Shown here piece by piece: positions 12,978-58,364 of a stretch of 64,000 nucleotides of DNA. The notes under the pieces were generated by a model that ran no database searches, was not told where the DNA came from, and saw only the letters and a program-made list of their open reading frames with translations. The DNA comes from Rhytidiadelphus loreus. Lineage: Eukaryota; Streptophyta; Bryopsida; Hypnales; Hylocomiaceae. Location of the stretch: positions 71,133,093 through 71,197,092 of the forward strand of contig OX344763.1 of the NCBI GenBank assembly GCA_947034895.1, written 5' to 3'. The position numbers were made by a program, and so were the translations under genes. The first letter of the stretch is position 1; the number at the start of each line of letters is the position of its first letter.

Positions 12978-13284
12978 GATAACCTTGATTACAATGAAGA
13001 TAATTGATGTCCGAATTTTCCCAAAATATTGCACCAAGTGCACCAAGTGCTTCTTACTTCAAAATTCAAATGCAATGGAGTGAAACGGTTTTCTAATTCA
13101 CAATTCCTTGCATACAAGAAATTATTCAAACCACATCACTTAAAACCACCAAGTATCCAAGCACAACCGTTCACACACCAAACTGAAAGGGGCGCGCAGA
13201 GCCACAGATTCACATCGGGCACTGGAAAACCCACTTCGGGAGGGAAACGGTTGTGGAAAAATGAGGCGTCGGAAACGCTATTTA

Positions 13285-16335: not shown

Positions 16336-17709
16336 ATGGCCGCGGAAGGTGATGGAGGGGCTATTGGGACGACTTCAACACAACCTCCACCAAAGAAAAT
16401 TAAAACAAGGGGGGGCGGACATGCGTTGCAGTATGACATTTTAGATGATCCGAACATCAAAGCGGAGCCTGACTGGGAGAAAGTGGAGGCCGAATATTGG
16501 AGCTCTAAAATGTGCAAACAATTTGTCAAAATGTACCACATTGACAAGTTGTGGTCTCGGGATTGCCACACAGCCCACACAAGATATTTCAATTGTAAGC
16601 CGTGGACTTGCAAGGATAGTCATTTTGTACATCGATCAGACAAGGTGTGGAAGGCCCTCTTCGGCAACAAGGCAAGGAGTAAAGGATACATAAATTACAG
16701 CACGGCATCTATGGTGTATGCAGAACTCATATTGGGTCGGAAGGTGGATTGGAGTACGTTTCCAACGACATCGCAATTGCCGCTTCAACTTCCGAAAAAT
16801 CAAAAGGATATTCCCGATTTATACAATCACGGGGCACAAACGGCTGAATCTAAAATAGTGTTAAAAAATACTAGAACGCCTACAATGAAGGTTTCACAGG
16901 GTGTAGGCAACGCAATACAGTTGGACCCCACACAACTAGGAGCGGAGGCCACCAATGCCTCTTCGGGAGGTGTATTTCGGAAGGTCAATTTCAAGGATCC
17001 GGAGACTTGTTTACCCACTTCGGTTCATGTACCAATCATGGGTGAGCAAAGCATTGCTCCAAACAAGCACGACCTCGTGAAAGAAGTTGCCCCTTCTTCC
17101 TCGTCGCGAGAAGACATGAATGAAGACAAAGTTGCAAGAGCAAATGCTACAATTGAACGGCTTATAGACAGCGATGCTCTCGATAGTTTGAAGTACGTTC
17201 CTCCAAACGTGGACTCGCCAACGCCACCTAGTCCAATATTGAGCCCGATCCGTGAAGTTCAACCCTCAGGTCTGTTTGTAGAGCGACTTCAAAACGTGGC
17301 AACGACCTCCAATATTGATGGCGAGGAGATTGTGCGCAAGTATCCGCTCTTGTGCACTTTAACTCCAAGAAGATTGCAATATGTGGGTCAAATCCCAAAT
17401 CCGGAGCATCTTAAAATCATACTTAGGTGCGGAGTTGAGTACCCACTTCAAATGGATGGATCGAGAGAAGGTGAACCCGTGAACGAGGCCGAGTGCTCTA
17501 GGGCAACCGAAAACAAACTTGGGCTTCACGATTTTGTGACATCCGCTCAAGCAATAACATGTTCTGCTGAAGCTGTAGCGGAAATGGCCCCGTTGGCTAT
17601 GGAATTGGCCAGAAATTTATCCACATTATCACATCCACTATTGAAGGGTGGATTGGCTTTTCACAAGTTTGCTAGTGGAGCGCTAACACTTCTTGATGAG
17701 AAGTACAAC
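16336..17709 (+). CDS. 5' half of a RING-H2 protein gene split by a transposon
   Basis: Exactly 458 codons run from the ATG at 16,336 to the insertion point. A short P/K-rich start (PPPKKIKTRGGG) is followed by a tryptophan-bearing segment with CKQFVKMYHIDKLWSRD and INYSTASMVYAEL, the part shared with the pseudogene at 12-13 kb. A low-complexity middle comes next, then a helical region (AVAEMAPLAMELARNL) ending LLDEKYN. The frame then enters the transposon end and stops after 16 foreign codons at 17,757. The continuation resumes in phase at 31,262 (YLKTIVELEQ), where a coiled coil and a RING-H2 finger follow. The whole protein would be a candidate E3 ubiquitin ligase of about 1,040 residues. 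Both halves have no internal stop, so the split is probably recent. The TCCGACGGCC array lies upstream. Confidence 0.7.
17698..17709 (+). repeat. Left copy of the target-site repeat
   Basis: GAGAAGTACAAC, identical to 31,250-31,261; the match extends two bases left (AT). MULE insertions usually duplicate 9-11 bp, so part of the 12-14 bp match may be chance or belong to the element end. Confidence 0.8.
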
Positions 17710-18120
17710 AAAGCTAGTATACGAGCGTCGAGCGTGAGCATGGAGCGTAGAGCGTAGAATTCGGAGCGTGGAGCTTCTATATTAAACAAAAAGGAGGGAA
17801 AAAATTGATGAAATAGGTTGTAGGATTGAAAAAATTAATTTAGAAATTTAATGAAGGTGGATGATAAAATTTGATTCGATATATTATAGGAAAAAGATGA
17901 AAAAAATAATTCAAGAAATAGATGGAGAAAGTAGATGAAAGTAGATGAAAGTAGTGGATGAAAATAGATGAAAGCAGATGAAAGTATATCCCATAAATGG
18001 ATGAAAGTAGATGAGTACAATGGATGAAAGTAGATGACATAAATGAATGAAAATAGATGTGAGAATGGATGAAAGAAGATTACAAAATGGATGATGATGG
18101 ATGGAAAATGGGCATGCACG
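17710..18120 (+). repeat. Left terminal inverted repeat with minisatellite
   Basis: The outer 60 bp is a run of GAGCG-type units (gagcgtcgagcgtgagcatggagcg). Inside it, 17,930-18,110 holds about 15 units like 'gatgaaagtagatg'. The right end at 30,850-31,249 is the mirror image in the same order, though substantially diverged, which makes these extended terminal repeats of about 400 bp. Minus-strand ORFs here (FIHFHP-rich) are translations of the minisatellite. Confidence 0.7.
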
Positions 18121-18572
18121 TGAATTGAAGAAGTAGATGAAACTGGATGGAAACGTGAATGAAAGTGGTTCAGACATATTTTTTGGGGGGTTTAAATAAA
18201 TTGCTAGTGACTTGAAGAAATAGGATAGAAGGGGGGTACTATGCAAGGTCCAGGTATATAAAAATAGCGGTTTAGGAAGACATTGCAATTCTCCATCTAA
18301 TACTTTCATCCGTTTATGACTTACATTCAAAAAAGGCTAAGTAAATGACGGATTTAGAATATTGCCCATGGATTAGGAAATCAACATACAGTAAAGAAAC
18401 TAACTCTACAATTACATGAAGACTTAAACCATGCATGTTATTCAGCAAATCAGAAATGAGGTAGTGGCTCTTGTTGTCTCACTACAATATATAATAACAT
18501 CTACATATATAAATGTTATGACTGACACGGTGGAAAGTATTGAAAACACCTGTGTAACGATTCTGCAATTTA

Positions 18573-21500
18573 CTACACAATTGTACTAGAACCCAGGATT
18601 CCGCAATCGAGCAATCTACGGACTTCATTGAAGCTGAAGCTTGGAGCATGAATAAAGACATCTGCAATTGAGTCTAAGTGGCAAATGACTACAAATAAAT
18701 AATAAAGATGCTTGCAGTTTGCCCACTGCCCTCTTTTTCCTAAAGCCTTGGTTGCCATTTCTTTGAAATAAGGGCACGAGCATTCTGGAAATGAACCTAC
18801 AGTCAAGATGTATTGACATGGATGTGGCTCCCCACCAGAGTTTAGCTTCACAATGCAGCCAAAGCCAGGATGTGGAATCACTGTCACTTGACAGATAGAG
18901 GCCTTCAAAGTGAGCGCTGAAGCATAGTTGTTTGATTGTTTTACTGTAGGTGCGCTAGGATTTCTTCGAATTTTTTTACCTGACCTTGTGTTTGGGTGCT
19001 CTGTGGGAAATGGTGGAACATGGCAGTTTGATACATATGATTGTCCATCATTGATTCCAAAAAGCCGCCGGGGTGAGATTTCAGAACGTTGTGGGAGACG
19101 GAAGCCGGCATTTTGAAGTTGCAGTATCTCTGTAGGTCTTAAGTTTGTCCCAAACTTCACTGGCCAAATGGTAGGCACGTCAGGTCTCAAAAGAACCCAC
19201 TTCTTCCTTGCACCCTTGACGCATCGCTCGATGTCATCGTTGCAGAAAAAAAACTGATGCCTCTCAATTCTATTTTTCTTGTAATTGTCCATGTTGCCGG
19301 TATACGTGGGTGCAGCTGTCCCCTTATTGCATTGCACAATCTTTGCAATACATTTCTTTCTTGTAATGGCCTGCAATGCAAAACATGCCTTTGCCGAATT
19401 CTTACACAAGCGAGCAATGTGCCACTCAGCCTCATCACATACTGTTTCTTCAACATGCATCACTCGAAAGGCCTCCGAAGTACTAGGTGCAGTTCTATGT
19501 CCTAAGGAATCTTCCACCTCTACTTGTTCATTGCTTGAAAGTGGAACGTCCTCAGAAACAGAATCCAAGTGAATCACCGTTGCAGTAGCTCGAGTGGTCT
19601 TCACATTCTTGCGTGGCCTCGAGAAGTTGACTTTGTCAGGACGATGCGAATCGTGTTGTGATCCTGGTGGTAAATTAGGCATGCGACCTTCAGATCCAAA
19701 CACTTCTTCTCCTTCGAGATGAGGATCCCGCGTGCAATATACACCAACACTCGGTACTGTTGCCATGACATCGTTTAATCCTTTTGGATTTCCAGTGCGT
19801 TCAGTATATCGTTGAGCAACACGGAGGAGTAGCTCTTCTTTTCCAGGACCTGTTCCTGGGTTCTCTCCCTTCAGAAATTGATAGTATCGAACCATCTGCA
19901 TGAATGCACGCACATAATCATCCACAGTCGCCACATACAGGTCATTTCCGCGATTCCCGGACTGTTGTAGCCATTTGTTGTGAACTGTCTCAGCCAGGTT
20001 GCAAGATGGCATCTCCGCCAATTCTTCGAGGGAGAGATCCTATAGCATATCAACATTATAAATATAATTGTTAAATAACACACTCCTACAGAAGAATGTG
20101 TACATTACTACAGAAAATCAAGACAACAACTCAAAGACCAACAATACAACAAGAGAATAAGACCACAAGGAATTAACATGACGTTGTTGATTACCAAAGT
20201 ATAGTTAGAAGCAGTCAACCTAATCATATATACAGACTTCGTTACCCTTCAAAATGACACAAATGAAGAAATCTAATAAAATCATCATGAAAGTGAAGAA
20301 ATCCTAACGATCCACTAGTGGAATTTCCCTGTTATAGGGGTGTTGTACTATCCACGTTGTCTCGGCTCCGAGAGGACTCTACGACACAACGACATCGTGC
20401 ACATCAATTATCAAATGAAATCCTTGATTTCCACTATGGAATAGCCGACATGTGGAGGAGTGGTGCTCTTTCCAGGATTGTCACTGGCTGGGGAGTGACT
20501 TTGGACGCAAGAACATTGTGCACATGAACATGTAGAATATACAAAGAACATCCTAACAAACATTAGAACTGAATATCGTCACAAAGAAATTTACCTATTT
20601 TTAACAGACAATCTTGTTCAAAAAGTAAGAAGAACTCACTAGGTGCATAAAGCCGCCCCATTGTCTGTAACGAAAGTGCCAGAACGATAACCACAAATCC
20701 AATCGTTGAACCCCCTCAGATGTTGTTGCACCAGAAGAGTGCCACCAAGCACGAATTGCATGGTAGCGAATCTCTGAATCGGTAGAGGAAGCAGCGTCTT
20801 TATATTGCTTGCATAGTCTGCGGTGTTGATCCTGCATGTCAGTCCGAATATCAGCTTTTGTGTGTTTCTCTAAAGACTGTGTCCAGTGAAATAGGCAAGT
20901 GCGCTCTCTGTTGAGCATGGGTTTTGACAGTTCACCACTTCCGTATATTTGCCTGAGTGCATTCCAGTTGGCCTGTGCACTATCCGCCATGAAACCCTTG
21001 AAATATGGTAATGCAATATTGTGCCTCGACATCACCACGTTTAAATTTGTCCAAAAATGGCATTGAGCAACTGTATCCTCAGATTGCATGTCGCACACTG
21101 CAATGGTCATCACACGGCAGTAGATTGGATCATAAACGTGGCATGCTAATGTTGTCCACTGCTTAACACGCTTCACATGATCAAACATCATCCAAGAGTC
21201 TTGCAAGTCACCACCTGGCTGCATTCTTATGACTAAGTCTACGCCACTACCAGGACCAACTTTAGACATTTTGAATACGTAAACCTTGTCTGTTTCAGAG
21301 CCCTGTCCCGGGAATTTGTTCTCCTGTATGTAAGCCCAATTGTTGCATCCCCTGAGCTTTGTAATGCTATCCATGCATCCAAAGCGTCGAAAATGCTTGA
21401 AGGTCGTCACCTCGTTTCTAATGCTTGGTGAACTCATAAACTTGCATTTCTCTAGGATTGGCATGAGCTCGACTAAACCAAACTGTGCAGGTGGCGCTCC

Positions 21501-22906
21501 TTCAGGTCTGAGGAGCATCTCTCCTACTAATTCCTTACTAGCTTCTAGAACAATAGCGGAATTTGTTGCTGCAGGATTCCGTTCTACCTGGTCTGAAATC
21601 AATGATTTAGTCCTCTCCTTGAAATCACGGTAGTCCCCATCTTTCACTGGATGTGAGTGAAATCCAAAGTGAGCACAAGCACGACGCACGTTGCAGTTCC
21701 CGACGACATAGTATATTCTTGCTTGGCAACTTGCAACACATGTTGGAATGGCTGAACAACTCTTGCAAGTGATGGTCGACCCAGAAGGAGGACTACATGA
21801 GGCCTCGAAGGAAGTAGGTGAAGACCCATCCCATTCAGTTTCATTCACGATTGACATCCGGTGCTTGCGATGCAGGTAGTCGCAAGATGAGTTGTCACAT
21901 CGAAGGTGGCCCACGCATGAAGCTAATCGGAAGGTAAGTCCATCATCATTTTTTATATTTGTGGTGTGAGTATTGGCCCAGACATGACCGTCATGGCGTC
22001 TCTCCATTCCACCTAAGAGCTTTGCTTGAGAATTCGAATTAGAGGGTCCTAGGGGCGGTAACTCAAATATAACATCACCGTTAAATACTGGTGGAACAAA
22101 GTTAACCTGTTGAATAGGAATAGAGTTATAATCCACCTTCTTAAAAGGATTCCGAGATCCTTTACTATGACAGAGCTTGCGAAGATAAGGAATGATCGAT
22201 AACCCTACACAATTAGATTCCGTAATTGAATCTAGAATGGGCACGGAGGGAGTGCAAGTAGCTTGAGATAGAGGAGATATGGTATGCTTCAAGAGCTTCC
22301 TAGGAGGTGAGGCATCGTCGGAATCGTCACTTTCTATAACTATGACATTTACACTAAGCTCAATCTTCACACGAGTAGGCAAGCCAGTGTGGAGAGATCT
22401 AGTACTAGTACACATAGGAATACTCTCGCTGCTCCCCGCCACAAGTGGCAGTTCAGACAACCCGTACGCTATGTATTTCCCTGATCGCAAATGCCACTGA
22501 CGAAGAGAACCATCCGTAATATGGTCCTGGCCAATAGTATGAATTGTATCTCTAGTAGAAGAGTCAAAAACTTCTTCATCAATATGAATACTGTTCTCCG
22601 ATAATGAGAAACGAACACTCAATCGAAATGCACTAACCACAGCAAATCCTTGGTCTCCTACAGGAAAGACTATAGGCACTCTCTCCCCATCCACCCTCAC
22701 CACTGCAACTAAACTGGACAACATGGTCGCTGCACCTGCAACAATTGACAAGAATGCCACTTCATAGAAGCTTCATATAAGACTATAATCAAGATACGCT
22801 GAGATGTTGTGGTATGCACGGAATGAATTGGAGAATTATGAAAAAAAAAAATTATATTGAGATGTCTGTCCCTACCATTGGAAATGGAAACAGAATTGGC
22901 GGCCAT
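18573..22906 (-). CDS. MULE transposase with GCM/WRKY-like finger, DDE core and SWIM finger
   Basis: Three exons join in phase: 22,906-22,876 (ATG, donor GTAGGG), 22,735-20,640 (donor GTGAGT) and 20,039-18,573, giving 1,197 residues with no stop. In order: a variable N-terminus; a Cys/His region (GHLRCDNSSCDYLHR, CKSCSAIPTC, then HFGFHSHPV) like the WRKY-GCM1/FLYWCH fingers of Mutator-like transposases; a DDE core with MMFDHV, FMADSAQANW, the CLFHW C2H signature and probably LAETVHNKW as the acidic third site; and a C-terminal SWIM finger (CSCPYF...CKH). The second intron position is identical in the broken copy at 39.5-39.9 kb. It probably cuts and moves this element and its relatives. It looks intact, so it may be active. 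It is divergent from the ParB-like gene, with 755 bp between. Confidence 0.85.
20040..20639 (-). other. Transposase intron with an isolated palindrome
   Basis: This 600-bp intron has GTGAGT and CTATAG borders. Near its middle (20,356-20,377) it contains TCTCGGCTCCGAGAGG, a single copy of the same palindrome class that fills intron 1 of the divergent ParB-like gene and the array at 0.1-1.1 kb. No coding potential. Confidence 0.6.
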
Positions 22907-23661
22907 TAAAGATCATGAATGGGAAATATTTAATGAAGAACCAATACTACATTAATTTCTGCACGATTTGTAATAATGTATCTGCCTGCATAAATGTAGA
23001 TAGTTGTTGAAGTAGGCGGTTCCCAAAAGACGGTTCTTCATTAAAATATGCTGTAGTGAGTCATGTAAATTAATGATGATGCATCTCACATTGGAGGTGA
23101 AGTATACATAGTTAGCCGCAGTTGGATCCTGGAGTTGAATTCAAATGTTTGTTTTGACAAATACCCTCCTTATCCAATCATAGTGAAGAGAGGATATAAC
23201 ATTATGACACGTGTCAAAGACCATCCAATGAAACATTCTAATTCATTATGAAACATGAAACAGATGCATGAATATGATTTTCTCACGCCAAAGGAGATCC
23301 ATATCAGATAAATCAAAGATATATTTTCCAGCCTTCAGTCTGACAACCTCCAATGAATGTGAGTCCATGGCAATTCTCCATTGAACGCTTGCCAACATGT
23401 ATCAAACCTATCAATCCCGATTATCTAAAATGAATTCAGTAATTTAATGGTTCACAAAAAATGATTGATAGAATTCAATGAAATTTCTAGAAGATTAGGG
23501 TTGCGACTTAGGCTTAGAAATTCAAGGAAGCCTTGAACTAGGAAGTCGCCTAGTCATTCTCTCTCCTCCAACGCCGCCTGTTGCGCATTGTGTTCTACTC
23601 ACCTGGAGAACGCGGAACAAGACACCACCGGACGTTTCTGCTCACGACTGTTGGAGGGCCG
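22907..23661. promoter_or_regulatory. Shared divergent promoter region of the transposon
   Basis: The 755 bp between the transposase ATG (22,906, minus) and the ParB-like ATG (23,662, plus) must hold both promoters. I see no clear TATA box and no palindrome. Plus-strand leader sequence near 23,560 is CT-rich (ctctcctccaacgccgcc). The assignment rests on position only. Confidence 0.4.
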
Positions 23662-26600
23662 ATGGCTCCAGAATTACGATCGCGAGCGCGCCTGGAGGTT
23701 GGTGATGTCTCGCAGGGAATGGAGGCCTCAGAGGCAGAGCAGGCGCTCGAGGTAAGACACTCACTTTCTAATTTGGGGGTGCCGATGTGCATGTGCCGAG
23801 CAACGGTTAGACAAAAAGTCCCCGTCTTGTGGGACTATCCAGTTTCGATTTTTTCGGGGTCGGGTGGCGCGCAAGCACGCCACGCGGGGAGAGATAAGGG
23901 AGTTAGTGCCGCTGAGAGGGAACTAAGAGGGATCAGACCGTAGTCACTCGTCGTGAGAGTGTTGTCCGTGAACGTGAAGTGCAAGTTCGGCAGGCTGCAC
24001 CAGCTCTCCAGATGAATCCCTATGCATAGCCGGCCCATGGCGCCTCCCCTCTTGGCCCCGAGAGGCCCATCTCGGAGGGGGGGGCTTCCTTGTAAAAATG
24101 CTGAGATGTTTTCGTGATCGCGGTGGTTTTTGCTGTTTCAAAATTTTCGATGGTCGGGTGGCGCGCAAGCACGCCACCGCGGGGAGAGATCAGGGAGTCA
24201 GTGGCGGTGAGTGTCAACGGGGAGGGGTCAGACCGCAGTCACTTGCGTGGCAGAGCCATCCCGCATGTGTTTTTGTCACGCTGCACCTGCGCCACGGGTT
24301 CGTCCCCATGCATAGCTGGCCCGCGGCGCCTCCCCTCTCGGCCCCGAGAGGCCCATCTCGGAGGGGGGGGCTTGCTTGTAAAAATGCTGAGATGTTTTCG
24401 TGATCGCGGTGGTTTTTGCTGTTTCAAATTTTGTGATGGTCGGGTGGCGCGCAAGCACGCCACCGTGGGGAGAGATCAGGGAGTCAGTGGCGGTGAGTGT
24501 CAACGGGGAGGGGTCAGACCGCAGTCACCCGTCGTGGCAGAGCTGTCCCGCTTGTGTCTTCGTCAGGCTGCACCAGCTCCAAGGGTTCGTCCCCATGCAT
24601 AGCCGGCCCATGGCGCCTCCCCTCTCGGCCCCGAGAGGCCCATCTCGAAGGGGGGGGCTTCCTTGTAAAAATGCTGAGATGTTTTCGTGATCGCGGTGGT
24701 TTTTGCTGTTTCAAAATTTTCGATGGTCGGGTGGCGCGCAAGCACGCCACCGCGGGGAGAGATCAGGGAGTCAATGGCGGTGAGTGTCAACGGGGAGGGG
24801 TCAGACCGCAGTCACCCGTCGTGGCAGAGCTGTCCCGCTTGTGTCTTCGTCAGGCTGCACCAGCTCCAAGGGTTCGTCCCCATGCATAGCTGGCCCGCGG
24901 CGCCTCCCCTCTCGGCCCCGAGAGGCCCATCTCGGAGGGGGGGGCTTGCTTGTAAAAATGCTGAGACGTTTTCATGATCGCAGTGGTTTTTGCTGTTTCA
25001 AATTTTGTGATGGTCGGGTGGCGCGCAAGCACGCCACCGCGGGGAGAGATCAGGGAGTCAATGGCGGTGAGTGTCAACGGAGAGGGGCTGAAACAGTTGG
25101 CCATGACGACACACCTTAGTCCCGCGAGTGGCAGTAGCATGATCGGGGATGTATCTGTTGCTGAGGTGGTTTTCCCCAGTATGGCTTCAGCGAGTCCACC
25201 CGCCTCTCGGGGCCGAGACGACCATCTCGGAGGGGGGATTACCTGCCTGAATTGATTGGCTTAGGTTATAGTGTCATGCAATTATAACTCTTTGCATGAA
25301 AATGTGGTAAATGAATGTATGCGTATAGTTCATAGGATTGGCTTATTAATATACAAATGGTAATGTATCCAGGTACAAGGAGGTCATAACATGGGAGATG
25401 TGGAAGTCCCTCGTCTGGAGCTCATCCATCGTGAGGATGTTCCTGGAGACATTGCCCCAGGCTTGCTTGTAAATCTTCTTCCACAGCCTCTAGATGATCT
25501 AATACGGGATATAGACCTAGGGATAGACGACATGTGGAGGGAGGATCGAATGCCCCCTCCCCGATCATGTTGCACTTCGTTAGGATCCAATGATGTAGAG
25601 ATCATACAATATTGCACTTGTGACATTGAACTTGAGGAGGTCACATCTGGGTATGAATCTGATGGAGATGTCATGGTCCTTTGCTATGGAGAGTACAGAA
25701 CCCTCTTTGAGACTTGTGATTGCGGAATATGATTTACGTGATCGTAAATTTATCATTTTGAATGCCGTGTCGTTTTCCTCAATTTTGGTCTTGAATATTG
25801 TTGATCATGTAGGGGACTATGGCAGAATCTCCTCTGGGTGGTCAATGTGCTACTGATCCCGCGGAGATGGAAGATGAGGACGTAGACGACATTCCGGGAT
25901 TGAAGCCACATTACTTGGAGGATGATATAAGGAGATCCCAGATGATGGACACAGTGTCTCTGATTTCTAGTATGAGGCTAACATTCTCCGATCAGTCTCG
26001 CCTGAAGATTCCTCTCTGTAGAATGGTCCCAATGCCGATGGTTCGCCCGACCTTGGAGTGTGACTTGACAATATTGGAGAATCAATTCAGTGGCGGATAT
26101 GATGAGGGTGCCCGTGTCTTCTACGTCTCGACATCGAATGAACAAGGACAGTCTGTAGTGTTTTCAGATGCTGAAAAACATGGTTGGAGTCCTTTGTGGA
26201 ATTCCGTCAACGACCAGTTCAATCACCACTTGAAGACAATTCCAGCATTGAAGCATCTTGTGGATTACAAGTTCTTCGTCTGCGATGAAAATCATAGACG
26301 AATTTCTTGGATGAGACACATTGAGAGGCTACACAGTACTGATCAGGAATGGCATGTCAGTGTGGACTCCATCATCCTTGATACAAAGAATCGAATTGGA
26401 GTCGCTATGCAGGCTATGCACGACATCAACAAGTAAGTTGAAAATTGCTAATGCATATTGTCATTTCATTATAGAACTTATCGATGAATACTCAATATCT
26501 TTTGGTATCAATGTCCAATGACTTTTCCATGTTTGTTTCACATAGGCAGACTGAGAACTCGCACATCAAGACGAACTTGGTACATACTCTGTATCGAGTC

Positions 26601-29600
26601 CAGAAGTATGGTCTCATGGGGCTGGAGAAGTTCCATGAGTTGCTAAGTCCGGAGGAGGCAAGCACATGTAGCGCCCACCCAAGCAAGACGTGGTACAGTA
26701 TGCCACTTCAGATTTTCACATCCTTTATTTTCAAGGTATGTTGCATAAATCCTAGAACTGATTTCTGTATAATATTCTGTTGACCTTGTCTTCTGCATTA
26801 TCAAACCTAAATCTCACATCTCCTTTCCTTTCATAGGAATCGTGAGTAACAGCAAGACATTGCATCGGCCGTGGATGTCGCCGTCCGCAAGTATCACGAG
26901 GACACACAAGCGACTGAGGTGACGAAAGAAGGTGTTGCCGCAGCAATGAGATTATCAATCAAGGAGTCAACAGAAAAATCATATAAGAAGCTATCCAAGA
27001 TTGTGGCAGTTGCCAATCCTACGCTTGGTCCACAGTGGTTAGCGGAGGTAAATTATGCTCTTTATTTACATGCAATCATTTCTAGGTTTAGGGGCCAATA
27101 TTATTTCGAGCTCTTACCTAATGATGGGATCGCAGATTGAGCGACACTGGAGTATGTACTCAACCCCGGAGTTGACTCTAGAGAAGTTGCAAATGATTGC
27201 AACTTCAAATGTTAGTGCATCATTCAAGGCTAGGTGGCTCAAGTGGATGAATGGCTCATCCCAATCTAGAGAGGCACGGCGATTTCCGACATGTCCTGTG
27301 AACGAGGAAAGGCTATTGCAATTCCTTGTGAAGGCATGTTGGTATGTGGGGGTAGGTTTTTCATCTCTACATTTTTATTGAAGTCTGTGTCTACTGTGAT
27401 CACGTTTGTTTACGGGATTATTTGATCTCCATTTATTTGTTGTCTTTGATTGGTTGTGTTTCTTGTTATACATGTTCAGATTGAGGAGACAGCTACTGAG
27501 ATGTTCGACGAAATTGTACGAGCTGATAATATTTCAATAGACTACACTGTTTCTGGCAAGCCTCAAACATTGTTGGAGTACATGGAAGGTTGGAGAATGA
27601 AGCTCTGGGACCACGCTTACACGGGCATGTTCAAGGGCGCTGATGCATATAAGAAGTCGGAGACGTTCAAGGAGCGCACGGCAGGATTGCTAGCAGTGAA
27701 GCGGGTCCTGTACAGGTACTACCCTCATAATGTATTTGATTTACCTTCATCCCACTCTGGATTATGGAAGTATATGAGTGTCTCAACCCTGACAGTTGTC
27801 TTCTCTGTCCAGGTACTTCACATTCGAATTATATGGGAAGTTGGCCATATCGAAGGATGATTTACCACCGTTTCTTACGACGTGGGTGGACCGGTTTAAT
27901 TCCGACTGCATGTTCACCGCAACGCAGCAGGTGAAGTGGAGTAGCGCACATTTAATTGCATGCCCGTGGTATCTAGAGTGCAACTTCGGCACTTTTCCAC
28001 TTGAAGAGGAGGCTCTCTTCGAATCATTGAAGAATTCAGTGGGTGTCAACCCAGACTTGAATGAGTTTGTTGGACTTGACGAGGAGGCCAAATCCAAGGC
28101 CATCAAGAGACGGGAGATATCGGACAAGAGGAAGATTGAGAAATTGGACGAGGCGAAGAAAAAATTTGAGGAGATCTAGAAGAAGAGACTTGCTGCTCAG
28201 GCAGAGAAGGAGCAAGAGAAGATGGAGAAGGAGCAAGAAAAGGCGAAGAAAGGGGGGAAAAAAAGGAAGCCGGAGACGCCAGTGCATGAACCAGCTCAGA
28301 GTGCGTCAGACGTTCCAGAGGGTTCATGTGGGTTCTCTCTTATTCAAGAACGCCTTGTGCATGGCTTGACACCGTCCACCAAGAATCTTGCTCCTGTTGC
28401 TGACATTGACGAGTGCATCCTGAACATGTCATTGTCCACATTGGCAAACGACGACAAGGCCTTCGATGACGTCCTAGCCTTTCTTGACATGGTAAATTTC
28501 TACACCTTGTGCCTACAGTATGGACTTCCACATTGGTTGTAAGGCATTTTGTTGTTGTGTGAAGAAATGTGCAAAATATTCATTTTGACATGAATTTCAT
28601 CTACCTTATATCCCCGTGATTGTAATTTTGGTCTACTTTTCAGCATGCCGGAGACAAGGATAGGTACTTCGACGGTAAACAGTGCATGCAGCAAGCGGTT
28701 GACCTAATCATCGTGGATCTTCCGGAAGGCCTCCATGTCCCAACGGTATCGGCTCCACCTGCACCAATTCCACAATGGAATGAGTTCCAGAAGGATTTCT
28801 TGTTGCCCATCTTCGACTTTGCGAAGGAGTACCTTCACGACAATGGCGCCCTCATGGTGATTTACCCATATTCCTCTCCTCGTCATCGAAGCCACCTCCT
28901 CGGATGTTGCCGCACATACGGCTTCCAGGTTTTAGTCACTTGGTTGGGGATGAACCATTTGCATGTCACGTCAGCGACCGACCCAACAACCACGGTACTG
29001 AAATCTCTGCTATCATTTTCCCTTACAAATGATTACATTATAGGTTCATGAGATGCTGACTTCCTTGTCCTTGCAAACTATGAAGTTCTCGATTTCACTC
29101 GTGGTTAAGCTAAGCGGCCCGAAGACCGTGAAAGAATTTCCGTTCCACGAAGTTCCAATTCACAAGGAGTTGGGTGTGAATGTGGGTCGTGACGACATTC
29201 TTCAGAATTTCCTCCCACTTGTGGCCGTGACAATGAATGGAGACATCCCTTGGAGAGGGCCCCGTGAGCGCTCAAGGGAGTTTATGCAGATGGTAGTAGA
29301 AGCGCTCACTGAACAGGGAGATGTGGTTGTTGACTGCACGACAGTTGTAGGTAATTATTCTTGTTTTTTAATTAAATTCTTGTACATTGTATGCTTCTTA
29401 TGTAACAGATTTTTAACGTATGTACTATGTGAATTGTCTGCATGTTTTCAGGTTCTAGTATTCAGGCTTGCCGTGCAACACGACGTCATATCTTGGCATT
29501 TGAGGAAGCCAAGGATATCTTCGATGCGGTAATTGCTCCGCAGATGCGCAAGTCTGTAGTCACTTGCGCCGAACCACGTACGACTGATCCTGAGTCGTTA

Positions 29601-29993
29601 GAGATGGAGGAAGAGGATGTTGAGCTAGAGCATGTCATCATGACAAATCGATTCAGTAAGTAAGTTTGACATTGAGCTTCTGCAATTGGACTTAGACCAG
29701 AGGGCATGAACTATTTATCTAACTATGTTGTGAATGATATTTGCAGGCCGCTTGAGAAAGTGAAGGAGTCAAGGAATGTTCCCTTCTTTGCGAGGGCAGG
29801 GTATTTTCCAAGCCCACCTAAATCATTCCATCTACCCGTTTATGCTGAGGTCCGAGCTCAAGAGTATGTTGCATTAGATCCACAACCAAGTAATCGGGCT
29901 AGGTTGATAGATCCGCATGTTCTACAATTTCTTGATGACTGTGCTCTTGATTCAGATTCAGAGTATTCTAATAGTGAGGGGAGCATGACTTGA
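23662..29993 (+). CDS. ParB/Srx-like domain joined to degenerate DNA-methyltransferase-like domain
   Basis: Exons read by eye: 23,662-23,751; 25,373-about 25,700; 25,813-26,432; 26,546-about 26,755; 26,853-27,047; 27,136-27,351; 27,480-27,715; 27,813-28,491; 28,644-28,994; 29,044-29,350; 29,452-29,659; 29,747-29,993. All borders from exon 5 on are GT-AG and in phase; the end of exon 2 and the exon 4/5 junction are unsure. Exon 3 holds IPLCRMVPMPMVRP and FFVCDENHRRISW, like the DG-x-HR part of ParB/sulfiredoxin folds. Exons 4-8 are helical, with a lysine-rich coil. Exon 9 has VDLIIVDLPEG, in place of motif IV (DPPY); exons 10-11 have GDVVVDCTTVVGSS, in place of motif I (FxGxG), in the order of beta-class N4/N6 methylases. 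An in-frame TAG at 28,177 separates the halves. Binding to DNA is plausible; methylation is doubtful. Confidence 0.55.
23752..25372 (+). repeat. Intron 1 of the ParB-like gene with 287-bp tandem repeats
   Basis: The intron has GTAAGA and TCCAG borders and joins exons in phase 0. From about 23,944 to 25,110 it holds roughly four units of 286-287 bp (equivalent points at 24,114, 24,400, 24,687 and 24,974). Each unit has the palindrome CCTCTCGGCCCCGAGAGG (for example 24,334-24,351), a second stem (GTGGCG...CGCCAC) and a donor-like GGTGAGTG. A degenerate palindrome follows at 25,203. The units differ by only a few bases, so the array is recent or homogenised. Long ORFs on both strands are artefacts of the 287/286 period. 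Confidence 0.85.
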
Positions 29994-30850
29994 GCTCTAT
30001 CTCCTTCATGTATCGGCTTTATAGTCTGTTATATTTCCAGGGCCTTAGTATCCCAAATTTTCTGTGTCTATTTATACTTTTTGATTGTTTCATTGTCTTT
30101 GAATTTTTGACATTCTAATCATTCTGTTGGTAGTGTCATATGATTCTATACCTATGAACATGTCATTTCTCCATTCTCTCCATGAATACTGGTTCATGTG
30201 AATTTCTATATAACTATGAGGGACCTACATTGAAGTGATTGAACTCTATGCCCTAAGGATCTATCTCGGTCTTATCTACTAAACATTTTTTATTTACAAT
30301 ATGTACTACAATGATTTACGTACCATTGATTCCAAATCCATATACCATGATTTCCGGAAGAGTGGCCACCCTACAAACCTACCCTAAACCGATAAAGAAT
30401 CTTTTATCTCCCCCCTACCAATTATATATCTTTATGGTGCATATTCAAATAGCACCCTAAACCTTCTATAACAGTTTCATTATTCTTGTTCTCCAACAAT
30501 GTGGATTCCTGCATTGATGTTACTTGTGCCACGTGTTGCAATGTTGTAGCTTTTTTAAAGGATAAGGTTATCTTCAAAGCTCTTCTACCTCCGCAATGTC
30601 ACATGGCTGTAGTTTGTCGATAGAATTTGTGTACCCCGCTATTCTGCCTATATATCTATACGACGCCACATACCCATGGAATGTATTTTGAAGTCATCTT
30701 TAACCAATATGTCACAGTTTTGTTGAATCTTGTCAAATTGACAACGTTGATAGTGTACACATCTTCTTCTCTAAGATTTGGTTTTTGTGATTGTGTAGGA
30801 GAAGCAGTGTTTCAGCAATGCTGCCGATGGACGGGTCTTGCTAAAGCATA
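29994..30850 (+). other. 3' flank of the ParB-like gene inside the transposon
   Basis: AT-rich sequence with no supported gene between the last stop codon and the right terminal repeat. It should hold the polyadenylation region. Confidence 0.5.
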
Positions 30851-31249
30851 GGTCTTTGTTACCCATTTTATTCATCCATTACATCCATCCATTTTCTACA
30901 TCCATTTCCTGCATCCGATATCATCCATTATTTTCATCCACTTTCATCATCTACATTCATCCACTTTTTTCATCCACTTTCATCCGTTTATTTCAACTTC
31001 GTGTATCCATTTTCTTCAGCACTTTCATCTGTTGATCTTCAACCAATATCCAAAAAAATTGCCTAAAATCTCATCCATTTTACTAATCCTCTCTTGTATT
31101 CTTTTTTTAACTTTCATAGATTTTTTCCTAAACTTCCATTTAAATTATCATCCTTTTTTCAATTTATTTGATCAATAATTCCAAAATTGTCCCTTCCCGC
31201 TCACCAATCCCCGCTCCCCGCTCGCCGCTCATGTACCAGCATTCCTCAT
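30850..31249 (-). repeat. Right terminal inverted repeat with minisatellite
   Basis: Inverted counterpart of 17,710-18,120: CATCCA/TTCATCCACTT-type minisatellite (30,870-31,080), an AT-rich part, then CGCTC-type units (cccgctcaccaatccccgctccccgctcgccgctc) ending near 31,240. The match to the left end is imperfect but the order of parts is the same. Confidence 0.7.
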
Positions 31250-31261
31250 GAGAAGTACAAC
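31250..31261 (+). repeat. Right copy of the target-site repeat
   Basis: GAGAAGTACAAC, identical to 17,698-17,709, immediately before the resumed RING-gene frame (TAC TTG AAG). Confidence 0.8.
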
Positions 31262-33010
31262 TACTTGAAGACAATCGTGGAGCTGGAGCAGAAAAATGAC
31301 GAGTGGAGTAAAAAGTATGGAAGGGTCGTTGAAAATTGTGAGTCATTGGGAAGGCAATTGGTGGCGTCAAGGAAGAAGTATAGCGAGAAATATTTGAAGG
31401 AACGAAATGAAGAAAAGGGCCTCTCTACAGTGGAGATCCAACTACCGAGGTCGCAAGAAACTCAAGAAAGCGATCAACTCTCTCTTCCATTTGAGAAGGC
31501 CAAAGCAGTGGAGGAGCTTGAGACCAGAAAGGTGGATGAGGTTCCAACTTGGAGCGAGTTGAATCGAAGATTGAATGAGGTAAACCAAGAAAATGCCCTT
31601 CTTCAATCGAGGTTGGACCGGATGAAACGAGTGGAGAACATGGATGAATGTCTACCGGCGAGCGGATCGGAGTCTCGGTGGTTGACATGGATACAACAAC
31701 TTCAAGACAAACCGTCTTTAGCATCTCGGGCAATGATCGGGGTTCGCACCCTTGCAATGAAGTCGGATGAAGATTGCAATGTCGTTGAGGCTGCTTTGAA
31801 GAAATTCAAGAGTGCGGTCGAGCAACATTCTTGGGGGTCTATGCCAATGACATGTTGGGGAGACATGGATGCCATGTACGAGTGGTTGAACCACGCCAAG
31901 AAGGAATCGCTAGCCCACAATCGCAACAGCAATTGGACTTTTGAAGTAGAGGAAGGATGGACTCCTTACACAACGCTTTCAGCACACATCAAGAAGAACG
32001 AGAAGATAGTTGTGCATGGTTCTAATCCAGGCAATGAAATGTTGAAGGGTCATTGTAGCATTTGCCAAGGTCCTTTTGGGCCTGAAGGAGCCTTCACCAT
32101 GGGCCATTGTCGCCACGTTTTTCATATCAAATGCGTTGTGCAAGCATCTCTGTTTCGATTCGCTTGTGCCGAGTGCCGTTCTCCTTTGAATCCGAGGTTC
32201 TACGAGATGTTTGGCATCTTGGAAGGTATGCCCCCCGGCCACGAATACAATAGATGGACTCTTCCACTTGACCAAGGGTCATACAAATTTCAGAATTATT
32301 CGCATTGGGGGAAACCCCTCATATGGGATCCAAAGGAACAGAAGCATGAATTGTATGATGCATCCATGCAACCGGTGGATTCCTTCATGTGGATGACCCA
32401 AAATATGGAAGTGGAGTTGCAGGCTCATGCCATTGATGATGGCGAAGCTCGTGAATTGTTTTGTCGCAGTATGGGAGGGCATTGGAGCATGCAACACCAT
32501 AAATTTAAGCTGGAAGAAGCTGCATCAATTCGTGTTCAGGTGGAAATGGATGGAGAATCAAACAAAGGGGATTCGTTCGTGGAGGTGGCCGGGGCATTTG
32601 ATAGGAGGGTGGCCGACATCATAGGTCAATGGAAGGCGTTCCTATTGGAAGGAGTCACCGAAGGGTTTAGGGTAAACAACCCTAGTGATGACCATATGGT
32701 GAATGTGTTGGTAAATCGAGTGGATGCTGCTCTAAGAGCCTTAAAGGCGATGGATGTGGATTTGACTCCGAAGCGCAAACAGAAGCGGAAGATTGAAGAT
32801 GACGATGACTATTCACCGGAAACAATACGACAATTTGTCGTTGTTGACAGGGCAACCAAATCAAATCGGTTCTTAAGCTCAACAAGCCCTGGGGGAATTT
32901 CTCATCGCGGAAGTCCAAGGATTGCCGCTCAAGTGGCGCAACGCAATACAAAGGGGTCCTTTGGTCTGTCTGGTGGTTCGGGAGATGGCAACAATGATAG
33001 AATTAAATAG
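31262..33010 (+). CDS. 3' half of the split RING-H2 protein gene
   Basis: The frame continues the 5' half in phase for 582 codons and a stop. It begins with a coiled coil (YLKTIVELEQKNDEWSKKYG, then SELNRRLNEVNQENALLQSRLD). A canonical RING-H2 finger follows: C-x2-C (CSIC), then C-x-H (HCRH), H-x2-H-x2-C (HVFHIKC) and C-x2-C (CAEC), so all eight zinc ligands are present. The remainder is uncharacterised, with a basic patch (PKRKQKRKI) near the end that could be a nuclear signal. RING-H2 proteins are usually E3 ubiquitin ligases; substrate unknown. The open frame also extends upstream into the transposon end (from 31,187), but that part is not native. Without its own promoter this half is probably not expressed unless transcription starts in the transposon. 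Confidence 0.7.
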   Translation, partial: YLKTIVELEQKNDEWSKKYGRVVENCESLGRQLVASRKKYSEKYLKERNEEKGLSTVEIQLPRSQETQESDQLSLPFEKAKAVEELETRKVDEVPTWSELNRRLNEVNQENALLQSRLDRMKRVENMDECLPASGSESRWLTWIQQLQDKPSLASRAMIGVRTLAMKSDEDCNVVEAALKKFKSAVEQHSWGSMPMTCWGDMDAMYEWLNHAKKESLAHNRNSNWTFEVEEGWTPYTTLSAHIKKNEKIVVHGSNPGNEMLKGHCSICQGPFGPEGAFTMGHCRHVFHIKCVVQASLFRFACAECRSPLNPRFYEMFGILEGMPPGHEYNRWTLPLDQGSYKFQNYSHWGKPLIWDPKEQKHELYDASMQPVDSFMWMTQNMEVELQAHAIDDGEARELFCRSMGGHWSMQHHKFKLEEAASIRVQVEMDGESNKGDSFVEVAGAFDRRVADIIGQWKAFLLEGVTEGFRVNNPSDDHMVNVLVNRVDAALRALKAMDVDLTPKRKQKRKIEDDDDYSPETIRQFVVVDRATKSNRFLSSTSPGGISHRGSPRIAAQVAQRNTKGSFGLSGGSGDGNNDRIK

Positions 33011-33712: not shown

Positions 33713-34038
33713 GGAGAATGAGTCCGTTGGTACTGTTTTTAAAATTCATCTTTCTGAATAACGGTCAGTGCCACCTGTATTCAGCTGCAAAGTATAAGTA
33801 GAAGAAACAAGGCATATGAAGGCACTCCAAATCCACTGAACACTACGATTTCCAAGGGCTAGGAGCTGCAATTTATTTTGTGTCCCTTGCTTGGTAATGC
33901 ATCGTTTGGTGGAAGAGGGGCCTTGAATTTCAAGGCTTTGTGCACGACCCTAAACCCAATTTTAAACATTGGTTCACTTGTGTTTACATTTTCCAAAACT
34001 TGCGAATTTGAAGAAGTTCAAGTTTGGAACTTGTGACC

Positions 34039-35555
34039 ATGAGCAAGGATCTTGCCTCTTGGTATGTCGTCCTTTCGGCGAGTAAAATACAATGCAAGGC
34101 TTGCAACAACGTGTTTTCAAAGAAAACGAGCCGTATGTTGAGTCACTTAGGATATGAATCGATTCCCGGTTCTCGTGATAGGGGAGTGAGTTTGTGTCCC
34201 AAATTGTCAGCGGAAACTCGAAGTCTATTTCTTCGATGCAATGGGGCATTTCCACAAAGACCTGTTCGTGGAAATGTGGATGTCAACAACTTGCCTATGG
34301 TTGAAAGCGATATGTCAAATGGGAGGGGCATGCCACGTTCTACGCAAGAAGATTCTTGTACAACACCGGAAGAAGTCGTTGGAGGGGGTTCCAAAGTAAC
34401 TCCAAGTATGCAAACATGTAGCGGACGTGACATTTGCAGGGCCTCAAGCAGTAGGCCTCCAACACAAAGTAGGCTTTTGAATGGCTTTCAAGAAACCATA
34501 AAACAGAATTTGAATGCAGTGTGGGCCAATTTCTTCTATGCGGCAAATATACCCTTTTCAGTGGCCCGAAACGTAGCTTTCAGAGAAGCGGTGAAAAAAA
34601 CCTCCGAGTATGGTAAGGCCTACACTCCGCCATCATATCATGATCTACGGCATAAATTGCTTGATCAAGCCAAGGCAAATGTCGTGGGGAAGGTGCATAG
34701 AAGGACCGAAGACAGCGTCAGGAAGTTTGGAGCAACATTGTCCATTGATGGATGGAGCTCAGTTACAAACCGTCCACTGATTAATGCCATGCTTGTATCT
34801 TCAGCGGGTGAGCAATTCCTTAGATCGGTGGATACTAGTGGGGTGGAAAAGACAGCACAATATTTGGCCACAATTTAAGAAAAATTCATAGAGCAGGTGG
34901 GTCCTACGAATGTGGTGCAAGTGAGCGCAGACAATGCTCTAGTGAATCCGGCAGTATGGAATTTGGTATCTACTAAATATCCACACATTTTTTTTCAAGG
35001 ATGCGTGGTGCATGCCTTGAATTTGTTGCTCAAAGATTGGGGAAAGGAGAAATGGATTGAAGAGTCGGTAAAGAGAGCCCAAACCGTAGTGAATTTCTTC
35101 AAGAAAAGACACATGCCACTTGCTATATTTCGGAAGTATGAGACAAAGTACAGTTTGTTGAAGCCGGTGGAAACAAGGTTTGCCTCTGTGTTTATCATGA
35201 TTGATTGTTTGTTGGAAGTCAAAAGAGCATTGCAACAAAGTGTGGTGGATCCACAATGGGTGGCATATGTGAATATACTCAACGACAATGGCAAAGCCAA
35301 ATCTCGCACGAAGTCTCGTGATGTGAAGAGGTTCATTCTAGAGGAGCATTATTGGGACCGATGGACAAATTTGCGAGAATTGGTGGCCCCTATTGTATAT
35401 GGTCTACGTGATTTGGATGCAAAGATGCCATGCATGGGTAAGGTGTTGCATATTATGAGGAATTTAGAGAAACATGTCCTTAGCCTAGAAGGGCCTCCTT
35501 TTTGTTTGGCAACAAACCTCGCCGAACCATTGGAGCGATCCTTTTTCAAACGCCG
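34039..35555 (+). pseudogene. hAT transposase remnant (BED-like finger, DUF659-type core)
   Basis: From the ATG at 34,039: a BED-like finger (CKACNNVF...SHLGY) and a core with LSIDGWSSVTNRPLINAM, ending at a TAA (34,876). The same frame continues with VSADNALVNPAVW and FFQGCVVHALNLLLKDWGK, the usual order of DUF659/hAT proteins, where D residues in these blocks are catalytic. The hAT dimerisation end is missing. Near 35,555, after EPLERSFFKR, the open frame passes without a stop into the zinc-finger part of the second MULE copy. The protein is therefore truncated and chimeric. A GC array lies upstream. Confidence 0.75.
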
Positions 35556-36060
35556 TGGCCATCTTGTTTGTTTCAACGTGGATTGTGATTATTTAAAGAG
35601 AGCTTCTAAGAAGAATGAAACAGAGTGGACTGGATACACCGTGTTTCCATTTGCATTGGGAGACAGTCCTCCCAAAGATTGTACTTTAGTGTGTAAGGTT
35701 TGCAAGGTTACACCTACTTGTCTAAACACATGTAATGCTAGAATCTATTATTGCTATACAAATGATCCAAAGAAGACAAGGGCTGCATATCAGGGAACCA
35801 TTCTGTCGCAACGTGATTTTTGTTTTTTTCTTAAGTTATCTAAAAATTTGGATCAGAAGTTCTTGGCAGGAACTCCTATTCGGTTTATAGATAAGTAAGA
35901 ATTGGAAATTAGGACAGGAATGAAGTAAGGTAGCTAACCGGATAATAAGTCTGAACCGGAATAGTTCGGGACCGGAATAATTCTGACCGGATTAGATTAG
36001 GTCAACCGGATTAGGGTAACCGGATTATTTAATGATGACCTAATTTGGCGGCGCTGGCAG

Positions 36061-36067
36061 TATATAA
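36061..36067 (+). promoter_or_regulatory. TATA box in the loop of an inverted repeat
   Basis: TATATAA is bracketed by GGCGCTGGCAG on the left and AGCGCC...CTGCCAG on the right, so the box sits between inverted arms (about 36,046-36,085). It is about 320 bp upstream of the gag-like frame. Confidence 0.5.
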
Positions 36068-36379
36068 GGGAGCGCCCTGCCAGTTAGTTTCCCTTTTTCA
36101 AACCCTGTGTGTAGGAGCCCTCTCGTTGCTGGAGCTGCTGTTGTGGTGTCCAATTGGGTTTCTTGTCATATCTATGAGGAAGAGTGAAATTATTGATTGT
36201 TGTTTTTGTGCGCTGCGGGGTTGGAAATCCGCAGTTGCAAATTTGTCGCTTTCCGGTTATGCGCTGTGAGGGAAAGTGAGATACGGGACGTGCGGCTAAG
36301 AGTGGAAAGGAAGGTAGAATTGGTAAGAGTTTTTGAGCGGAGTGCATCCATGCCGTAGTTACGTAGGCCCAGACAGAGC

Positions 36380-37978
36380 ATAGCCACGGCGGAGATCAAA
36401 TTGAAGAAGGTGATTCCGGTCATCCCCTCACGGGAACCGGAAAAGGCCGCTCTCATGGAGGATCTCGCCACTTTGGGCTTTGCGGGTCTGATAGATAAAC
36501 CCTGGGGGTTTAAGGAGGAGAAGGTAGTTCGGGAGATATTGGAGAAAGTCTCGAACGCTTTCGACAACACCGTCAAAGGCAACCCAGGCTGTTGGACGGA
36601 AGACAAGTGGAGGGAAGTATACGGTTTCCGGTCAGGGGGTTTGGGTACCGCCAGCCGGAAGGACGAGTACATTAAGGGGAAGTTTGCGGAACCAGCCAAC
36701 CCGAAGGACGGATTCGCGGTGGAAGATTGCGTGGATGAGCGGAACCGGAACTTACTCAAGTTCCTGATTCCGATCTTCCATCCGGAGCGGCCGACGAGGG
36801 TAACAGTGACCCTCGGAAACACGATCTTCGGTGCGCTTTCCGGTCAACGAAAGGCGGATTGGGCCCGAGTACTAAGCGACCTGGTGAACAGCTTGGTACC
36901 CCGGATAGGGAAGAGTAGGCCAACACCTCTCTCTCCCTATCTCCTTCATTTATATCACCATGATCAGGTCTTGACGGAGACGGAGGAGAAGACCTGGAGA
37001 GCTCAGGAGTCCATCCTGAAGTACGGGGAGTCGGAGACCGACGAAGAACCAGAAGACGAAGGGACGGAAACTGAAGAAGAAGGCACGGAGGACGAGGATG
37101 AGCAGTTGAAGCGGGTGAAGAGGCAGAAGACGACGCCTCCACACGGAAGAGGTACACCGACCCGGGAGACAGTAGAACCGAAACGGAAACCGGAAAAGAG
37201 ACCGGTAACTGGAGAAGGTAGCTCGACCGACCTCTTCAACACTCTGGTGTTAGCCATCGCTGACATCCGTGTAGACTAGGAGTGTAAGCGGATTACACTC
37301 GAGAAGATCGGGAAGCTGGTAGGAGTATCACCAGATCGCCAGCTGCCCAAGGTAATAGCGGACCTCATCAGTAATCCGGACGAGGACCGGAAGCTGAGGG
37401 AGGACAATCGTCGACTACAGAATGAAGTCGACATGCTGAAGGAGGAGATTGCCACCTTCAAGGAAGACATGACCGCCACGAGGGAGATGGCGGATGCGAC
37501 CCAGAAGACAGCAAAGCTTATGACCGAAACATTCGGGGAGTCTGGAATGGTACTAGCAAAGGCGAAGCTGTTTGATGAAGGGTGGCTAGCGGACAAGAAG
37601 CCATCCAGTTCCCGGATGGTCCGGATTTTGTCAGACTTCTCCGAGAAGTTGGAGACGATTCTGATAGGAGCTCGGGAAGCTGCGGACCAGATGAGCCGGA
37701 GCAGCGTGAGGTTGACCGGAACAATACTCTCGAGGAGTCTCCGCTTGTCGGATCTCTCCTTGCCAAAGTTACTTCCAGAAGGTGTGGACGTCACTCCTCA
37801 ATCGAAGAAGGAGCGGCCGGCGGCGAGAACTGGATTGCCAGAACTTATTGAGGTGGACTCATCACCAGAGAAGCCGGATCCTACTACTGGTGAGCGAGCC
37901 CGGAATTTGCAGGACATCTTCAATGAACTGCCACCAGAGCCTGACAGTGATGCACCAAGGGCAAGTATGGGAGTTTAG
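36380..37978 (+). pseudogene. Gag-like ORF with lost start and one stop
   Basis: One frame of about 530 codons, broken by a single TAG at 37,277. The likely start reads ATA at 36,380 (then ATAEIKLKKVIPV), one base from ATG; the next ATG is inside the conserved part (MEDLATLGFAG). The first half is globular with GCWTEDKWREVYGF and FHPERPTRVTVTLGNTIFGAL, followed by a very acidic stretch, a basic patch (KRVKRQKTTPP) and a coiled coil. No CCHC knuckle or protease motif is present. I group it with plant gag-like or transposon capsid-like proteins by general look only; the family is not identified. Confidence 0.45.
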
Positions 37979-58300: not shown

Positions 58301-58364
58301 ATCAAAATTGTACCTATTGTAAGCTTTCAATAGGGAATGAAGTTAGGGCTTTAGGGTATAAGGA

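Follow-up and report, generated by a model that had tools for sequence, protein, structure and literature searches.

What is a gene that joins a ParB-like domain, of a type best known from the segregation of bacterial chromosomes, to the remains of a DNA methyltransferase doing inside a plant transposon? The question is raised by a stretch of 64,000 nucleotides from the moss Rhytidiadelphus loreus (contig OX344763.1, positions 71,133,093 to 71,197,092; hereafter the window). An earlier note, made from the letters alone, had claimed that the gene at 23662-29993 is the second gene, or cargo gene, of a eukaryotic DNA transposon, which it labelled a Mutator-like element (MULE). It appears that the cargo protein combines a predicted ParB/sulfiredoxin (Srx) fold with a region that profiles relate to the N6/N4 methyltransferases and in which the motifs are altered. 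We tentatively read it as a factor for self-recognition and anti-silencing of the element, an interpretation that falls somewhat short of probable.

That the cargo gene belongs to a DNA transposon is borne out by inverted ends, a target duplication, the reading frame of the reconstructed empty site and the multicopy ParB exon. The boundaries of the element and its insertion site are as follows:

17710-31247, no strand: element 1, a whole DNA transposon of 13,538 base pairs (bp), delimited by inverted ends, a 14-bp duplication and flanks that join into one open reading frame (ORF)
17696-17709, plus strand: left target-site duplication, ATGAGAAGTACAAC, exact match
31248-31261, plus strand: right target-site duplication, ATGAGAAGTACAAC, exact match
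17710-17744, plus strand: left terminal inverted repeat (AAAGCTAGTATACGAGCG...), which aligns locally to the right end with a score of 17
31208-31243, minus strand: right terminal inverted repeat (AATGCTGGTACATGAGCG..., minus-strand reading), from local alignment with the left end
16339-17709, plus strand: left half of the ORF split by element 1, from the rejoined reading frame
31262-33010, plus strand: right half of the split ORF, RING-like (PF17123 at 25.9 bits, just below the cut-off of 27)

When both strands of the 64-kb window are scanned, ATGAGAAGTACAAC has just two exact occurrences, which flank element 1; once the flanks are joined across the duplication, an uninterrupted frame of 1039 amino acids reappears. 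Over their first 45 bases the ends reach an inverted-repeat score of 17, attained by none of 2000 random pairs (maximum 16). A gapped alignment of about 200 bases per end, with the right edge 11 bases short, scored 74 against a shuffle maximum of 80, so that the signal above chance is confined to the first 45 bases. A second, broken element near 41.9 kb has a right end that scores 20 against the left end of element 1 and 14 against its right end. The split ORF may itself belong to a repeated family, since its N-terminal part seems, by eye, to have a shorter relative at 12516-13058 on the minus strand.

The cargo gene lies on the plus strand, divergent from the transposase gene, and the spliced model agrees with the earlier estimate of about 11 introns. 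It consists of two upstream exons and ten coding exons (25819-29993):

23662-23751, plus strand: upstream exon 1, probably leader, from an ORF with a GTAAGA donor
25374-25716, plus strand: upstream exon 2, acidic, approximate and with an unsettled donor, from the reading of an ORF
25819-26432, plus strand: coding exon (exon 3) with the ParB/Srx domain at model residues ~58-203, from structure model and alignment
26546-26735, plus strand: exon 4, with a boundary that fits the Ceratodon protein and relative P0084 (see below)
26853-27047, plus strand: exon 5, from comparison with the Ceratodon protein and the splice model
27136-27351, plus strand: exon 6, splice model
27480-27715, plus strand: exon 7, splice model
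27813-28491, plus strand: exon 8, Lys/Glu-rich linker with an in-frame TAG at 28177-28179, splice model
28644-28994, plus strand: exon 9, position of methyltransferase motif IV (DLPE), profile alignment
29086-29350, plus strand: exon 10, position of methyltransferase motif I (DCTTVV, followed by a G whose codon spans exons 10 and 11), profile alignment
29452-29659, plus strand: exon 11, end of the methyltransferase region (SSIQAC...FEEAKDIF), profile alignment
29747-29993, plus strand: exon 12, C-terminus and stop, splice model

The nine introns of the coding part are all GT..AG and 87-152 bp long, and GC content is 0.483 in the exons versus 0.341 in the introns. The coding sequence probably starts at the ATG at 25819, because the ORFs of some relatives (P0084, P0105) begin nearby, which is weak evidence. 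Searched with an earlier exon model of the whole protein that had X at two places and that also served for the Pfam scan, the databases yielded one relative, a protein of 1147 amino acids from the moss Ceratodon purpureus (P0001; E 2e-105, 28-29% identity). The match covers 85% of the query, or about 1000 amino acids, and is not due to chance (pairwise E 4e-115); the two proteins are colinear, beginning at the acidic N-terminus and including the methyltransferase region. P0001 and P0084 also set the junction between exons 4 and 5. Between the ParB and methyltransferase parts lie some 500 residues (205-710) of partly conserved sequence and linker. One in-frame stop is left in the model, the TAG in exon 8, where the sequence is rich in Lys and Glu and Ceratodon shows no conservation. 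It may mark the window copy as dead or sit inside an intron. A possible intron covering it (GTGGGT donor in 28031-28050, acceptor CTAG ending at 28179) was not chosen, because coding-like sequence would be lost and the acceptor looks poor. Scans for Rfam families (at gathering thresholds) and transfer RNA genes found nothing.

The ParB/Srx fold of exon 3 is supported by a confident structure model and by structural matches, and is the fold common to ParB, Noc, sulfiredoxin and SerK. The earlier note had proposed a fold check of this exon; when run, it gave a predicted fold not unrelated to ParB/Srx. The C-D-x-N-H-R motif that the note had pointed out is present, as C-D-E-N-H-R in the window. 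An alignment of 88 ParB exons (the two window copies and 86 of the 120 relatives listed out of 623) has D.NHR in 85 and DGNHR in 83 sequences. The Box II P motif GxxR, predicted to contact the nucleotide, is kept in most relatives, with G and R each found in 86 of the 88. PF02195 is absent from the 24 Pfam families that these exons match at E<=0.5, a sequence search of the PDB with the ParB-exon profile gave chance-like matches only, and no gene for a ParA partner was recognised within element 1, where a distant version could be missed.

For the C-terminal region, sequence profiles support the proposed methyltransferase likeness, with motifs in the beta-class order (IV then I), and DLPE and CTTVVG stand where motifs IV and I align. 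The Ceratodon protein reaches 30.4 bits with PF01555 (N6_N4_Mtase; cut-off 26.7) and is matched by PHROG and PADLOC methyltransferase models; NCBIfam methyltransferase models match it far below their cut-offs. In the PDB, a two-row profile of the window and Ceratodon sequences finds DpnA (E 1.7e-4) and CcrM (E 0.0054) around motif I. Against five annotated phage methylases, chosen from the 20 listed of 264 records matched by the Ceratodon protein, the same profile scores 98.4% (E 7e-15) over 207 columns, through motifs IV and then I. The window sequence alone scores 94.7% (E 6e-8; 64 columns around motif I) and the Ceratodon sequence alone 97.9% (77 columns). As controls, 15 shuffles of the window sequence gave 0.1-0.4%, the two-row profile against the transposase alignment 0.2%, and the phage methylases against the ParB exon 0.3%. 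The motifs themselves depart from the catalytic (D/N/S)PP(Y/F/W), reading DLPE in the window and DTPF in Ceratodon, and from the FxGxG that binds S-adenosylmethionine, reading DCTTVVG and DLSASTG, with the last glycine alone kept. The acidic residue following the next strand is retained (FEE and IEE, respectively). Judged from these letters, the window form is unlikely to methylate DNA, because the aromatic residue and the first glycine are lost.

The 623 relatives came from a search with three aligned rows of the ParB exon; the 120 of them that are listed are nearly all metagenomic, and the first of these (P0061) is 95% identical to the Ceratodon protein. By sequence the ParB exon is multicopy, a statement that applies to the exon, since the relatives are ORFs. 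Viral contigs held no relatives of the Ceratodon protein or of the ParB-exon alignment, and prokaryote genome contigs no relatives of the ParB exon. The window contains a second copy of the exon:

1414-2243, minus strand: second cargo copy, decayed, ParB exon, with a frameshift and a break in exon 4 recognised by eye

Over 145 codons the two window copies share 51% amino acid identity, and their differences by codon position (0.386/0.269/0.621) fit coding constraint. An ORF upstream of the second copy (2445-2939) and the transposase N-terminus (22300-22350) carry acidic hydrophobic stretches, which we take to resemble SUMO-interaction motifs.

The transposase of element 1 is an uninterrupted protein of 1183 amino acids, encoded in two exons on the minus strand with an intron at 20040-20639:

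20640-22724, minus strand: transposase exon 1, residues 1-695, open frame, with relatives of residues 250-800
18573-20039, minus strand: transposase exon 2, residues 696-1183 and stop, with the SWIM-like CxCx19CxH, open frame
35557-41217, plus strand: second transposase copy, broken, in pieces 35557-35796, 39271-39465 and 39859-41217

Residues 250-800 find 59 relatives at E<=1e-3, and the intron site is common to the second window copy and relative L001. MULEs carry a SWIM-like CxCxnCxH after the transposase core and have target duplications of 8-11 bp. The part of the MULE label that stands is the SWIM-like motif, CSC-x19-CKH in element 1, with identical spacing in relative P0003. The target duplication, an exact 14 bp, falls outside the MULE range, and 16 transposase sequences (the window plus 15 of the 59 relatives) match no Pfam family at E<=0.1, the MULE domain included; the label is therefore not confirmed. 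A PDB sequence search with the transposase profile gave chance-like matches only. Transposase relatives are absent from viral contigs, and prokaryote genome contigs contain one, L001 (L001:17-3521, CADCWO010000080.1, 4.1 kb), labelled as a cyanobacterial metagenome-assembled genome. It encodes a transposase relative whose intron has the position seen in element 1. A spliced gene does not fit the label, and L001 is probably eukaryotic contamination; its 4.1-kb contig has no cargo match. A code in which TAA and TAG are read as glutamine was ruled out, the transposase and other long ORFs being open under the standard code. An ORF at 34012-35500 with a BED zinc finger (below cut-off) and DUF659, which is hAT-like, runs in line into the piece of transposase copy 2 that lies at 35557.

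The two genes of element 1 share a palindrome in their introns. The candidate sites in the window are the following:

23858-25087, plus strand: tandem array of 4.3 units of 287 bp in cargo intron 1, containing GGTGGCGn8CGCCACC and CTCTCGGnnCCGAGAG palindromes
24049-25219, no strand: five CTCTCGGnnCCGAGAG palindromes with at most one mismatch, starting at 24049, 24335, 24622, 24909 and 25204
20359-20374, no strand: palindrome GTCTCGGCTCCGAGAG in the transposase intron of element 1, motif scan
3526-4890, no strand: array on the upstream side of cargo copy 2, containing TAGTCGGATCCGACTA palindromes at 3526, 3811, 4138, 4367 and 4875, at most two mismatches
39684-39699, no strand: TAGTCGGATCCGCCTA in the intron of transposase copy 2, inside a unit resembling the array units

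At no more than one mismatch CTCTCGGnnCCGAGAG occurs eight times: at 275, at 454, at 20359 in the transposase intron, and from 24049 to 25204 in the cargo array and at its edge. TAGTCGGATCCGACTA, at no more than two mismatches, occurs six times (3526-4875 and 39684), and the unit at 39684 aligns with the array units. All 14 sites fall within three segments that hold cargo or transposase copies, 25,102 of the 64,000 bases, the segments having been drawn after the sites had been seen. Among GC-matched random arms, 1 of 634 recurs in at least two separate places and none in three, the number reached by CTCTCGGnnCCGAGAG. Common to both motifs is TCGGnnCCGA, with 10 exact sites against 0.44 expected: five in element 1, four in the left 5 kb and one elsewhere, at 15941. 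Recurrence alone is not special, because other recurring perfect palindromes, at about 42, 57 and 63 kb, look like satellites; the special feature is the sharing of a palindrome between the two genes of an element. Arrays of motifs in the noncoding DNA of the element, the arrangement found in VANC-type systems, are present if the motifs are taken as candidate sites. A second palindrome, GGTGGCGCGCAAGCACGCCACC, occurs five times (once mismatched) in the 287-bp array, at 23863-25038, and nowhere else in the window at up to three mismatches.

How might such a protein serve the element? If it is the anti-silencing factor that we tentatively propose, it would load onto the element's own palindromic repeats as a nucleoside triphosphate (NTP)-dependent clamp and spread along element 1, while the methyltransferase remnant would read DNA or DNA methylation instead of methylating. 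The element would be kept open so that transposase gets made, by analogy with VANC of the Arabidopsis VANDAL elements. We favour anti-silencing because loading and spreading of a ParB-type clamp would give a known physical route to demethylation of the whole element. A more specific version, which we consider rather doubtful, is a system like parS-ParB, in which an NTP clamp on palindromes with the TCGGnnCCGA core slides over the element, and the dead methyltransferase reads methylation and repels silencing. Palindrome and clamp would then diversify together, family by family, and sliding would account for anti-silencing along the whole of a long element that offers only a few short motifs.

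Several observations weigh against an anti-silencing clamp. The window copy perhaps makes no protein, given the TAG at 28177-28179 and the glutamate of its ENHR, which replaces the Box II glycine and is the sole E among the 88 exons. The window ParB exon itself matches none of the ParB-like models, and across the aligned exons the matches to unrelated families are roughly as weak as those to ParB-like families (HTH_metalloreg in 11 of 88, best E 0.016; KMP11 in 3 of 88). The Pfam scan, in which distant versions could be missed, found neither a C-terminal dimerisation domain nor a helix-turn-helix, the lack of the latter counting against a ParB-like clamp. The window protein scores just 10.7 bits with PF01555 against the cut-off of 26.7, and the phage methylases came from the Ceratodon protein's own matches, which favours the two-row profile. 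In a model of the whole Ceratodon protein the ParB part is good and the methyltransferase part unstructured (predicted local distance difference test score ~30), because just one full-length relative was available for the alignment. As to the sites, the array palindromes of element 1 stem from one tandem unit, and for both motifs the recurrence comes from duplicated units, whose multiplication needs no selection. TCGG and CCGA half-sites with a 1-base spacer occur seven times, none in the element; the short transposase intron of L001 has no such palindrome; and sites 275 and 454, beyond the break of cargo copy 2, may be part of other DNA. The second copies of cargo and transposase, both broken, are only candidate members of one element.

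Another reading is that the protein is a working amino-methyltransferase, guided by its ParB-like domain to place N6-methyladenine or N4-methylcytosine on the element, either to mark it as self or to keep host factors away. In favour of this are the relationship of the domain to N6/N4 methyltransferases, the D-T-P-F and the retained second glycine of motif I in the Ceratodon relative, and the frequency of ParB-N6_N4 fusions in phages (PMC12704722). Retrotransposons, too, are known to carry methyltransferases, Dam-like ones in DIRS elements and C5 ones in others (PMC5890265). We nevertheless hold this reading to be unlikely, since the window form lacks the aromatic residue of motif IV and the first glycine of motif I, the Ceratodon form departs in both motifs, and a change of SPPY to APPA abolished the activity of the bdelloid N4CMT (PMC8885841). 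A role as transposition accessory, in which the ParB-fold part would nick or tether DNA and the methyltransferase remnant bind ends or new copies in aid of excision, end pairing or replication, would suit the divergent pairing of the cargo gene with the transposase. It would also suit the nonspecific nicking by the Bacillus cereus ParB-methylase Bce_0392 and the ATPase and DNase activities of the ParB-like domain of Osa (PMC5512222). The palindromes of element 1, however, are internal, in introns, and not at the terminal repeats, and we see little likelihood in such a role.

Quite improbable in our view is that the cargo has no role for the element, whether as a host gene picked up by accident, in the manner of Pack-MULEs, or as a one-time transposon gene that now works for the host. 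The sole annotated relative is indeed the one Ceratodon protein (a cluster of two sequences from one contig), which may be a host gene, and none of the 59 transposase relatives is named Ceratodon, most of them carrying no name. Against this stand the 623 largely metagenomic (as far as listed) relatives of the ParB exon, the full-length colinearity with the Ceratodon protein and the coding constraint between the window copies. The contigs of transposase relative P0059 and cargo relative P0144, both of 185,737 bases, are suggestive of linkage, as a hint only.

The window holds further features. Two adjoining minus-strand ORFs at 53981-56599 with DUF7869 (E 3.7e-33 and 6.8e-5, the latter below cut-off) are probably one broken mobile-element gene, and a minus-strand ORF of 619 amino acids at 8670-10529 is kinase-like (Pkinase E 1.4e-4, below the curated cut-off). 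TTTAGGG arrays resembling plant-type telomeres lie inside the window at 15530-15567 and 58343-58523, and satellite-like repeats in which ATCCTCG palindromes recur, with no apparent relation to the element, at 56481-57117 and 63010-63256.

A literature search of partial coverage gave no report that we recognised of a ParB-methylase gene in a eukaryotic transposon. Such fusions have been described from phages and bacteria; here the fusion is an intron-rich, settled gene in a DNA transposon of a eukaryote, and its ParB exon is multicopy, so that the module would have entered another arena of genomic conflict. If our tentative anti-silencing reading is right, it brings candidate DNA sites and a biochemical handle, nucleotide-dependent loading and sliding, to the question in plant epigenetics of how short motifs direct anti-silencing of a whole element, and it places a relative in Ceratodon, a moss in which study is possible.

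VANDAL elements are Mutator-like. Their VANC proteins strip methylation over whole elements and bind short motifs arrayed in the introns of VANC and VANB and upstream of VANA (PMC5735166). The likeness to the cargo gene is one of arrangement, an accessory gene of a DNA transposon with candidate target motifs in tandem array in its own intron and in other noncoding DNA (PMC5735166); the candidate motifs here are palindromic, and anti-silencing, measured for VANC, is inferred for the cargo. Among selfish elements that likewise carry a DNA methyltransferase, DIRS elements with Dam-like enzymes and the dinoflagellate and Klebsormidium elements with DNA methyltransferases (PMC5890265) are retrotransposons, whereas element 1 is a DNA transposon with terminal inverted repeats, a ParB domain and an altered amino-methyltransferase. 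In the bdelloid N4CMT, too, an N6_N4_MTase domain of bacterial type has become part of a spliced gene of a eukaryote, but that gene belongs to the host and is not transposon cargo, and its product has SPPY, a chromodomain and measured activity (PMC8885841). The canonical CTP clamps ParB, Noc and KorB are the closest solved folds; the cargo relatives keep Box II GxxR, the candidate sites are 16-bp palindromes, and the position of Box III would read MH[DN]IN. The Box II DGNHR is close to the DGQHR of GmrS-like members (PMC4619093). Fusions of the ParB-CTPase fold to N6_N4 methyltransferase (PF01555) are frequent in phages (PMC12704722, whose main text has no words beginning with "transpos" or "plant"). 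These fusions and the bacterial Bce_0392 likewise bring both kinds of domain together in one protein in a mobile-element setting (PMC12704722; PMC5512222); unlike them, the cargo gene is spliced, resides in a eukaryotic DNA transposon, has about 500 residues between its two parts and carries changed catalytic motifs.

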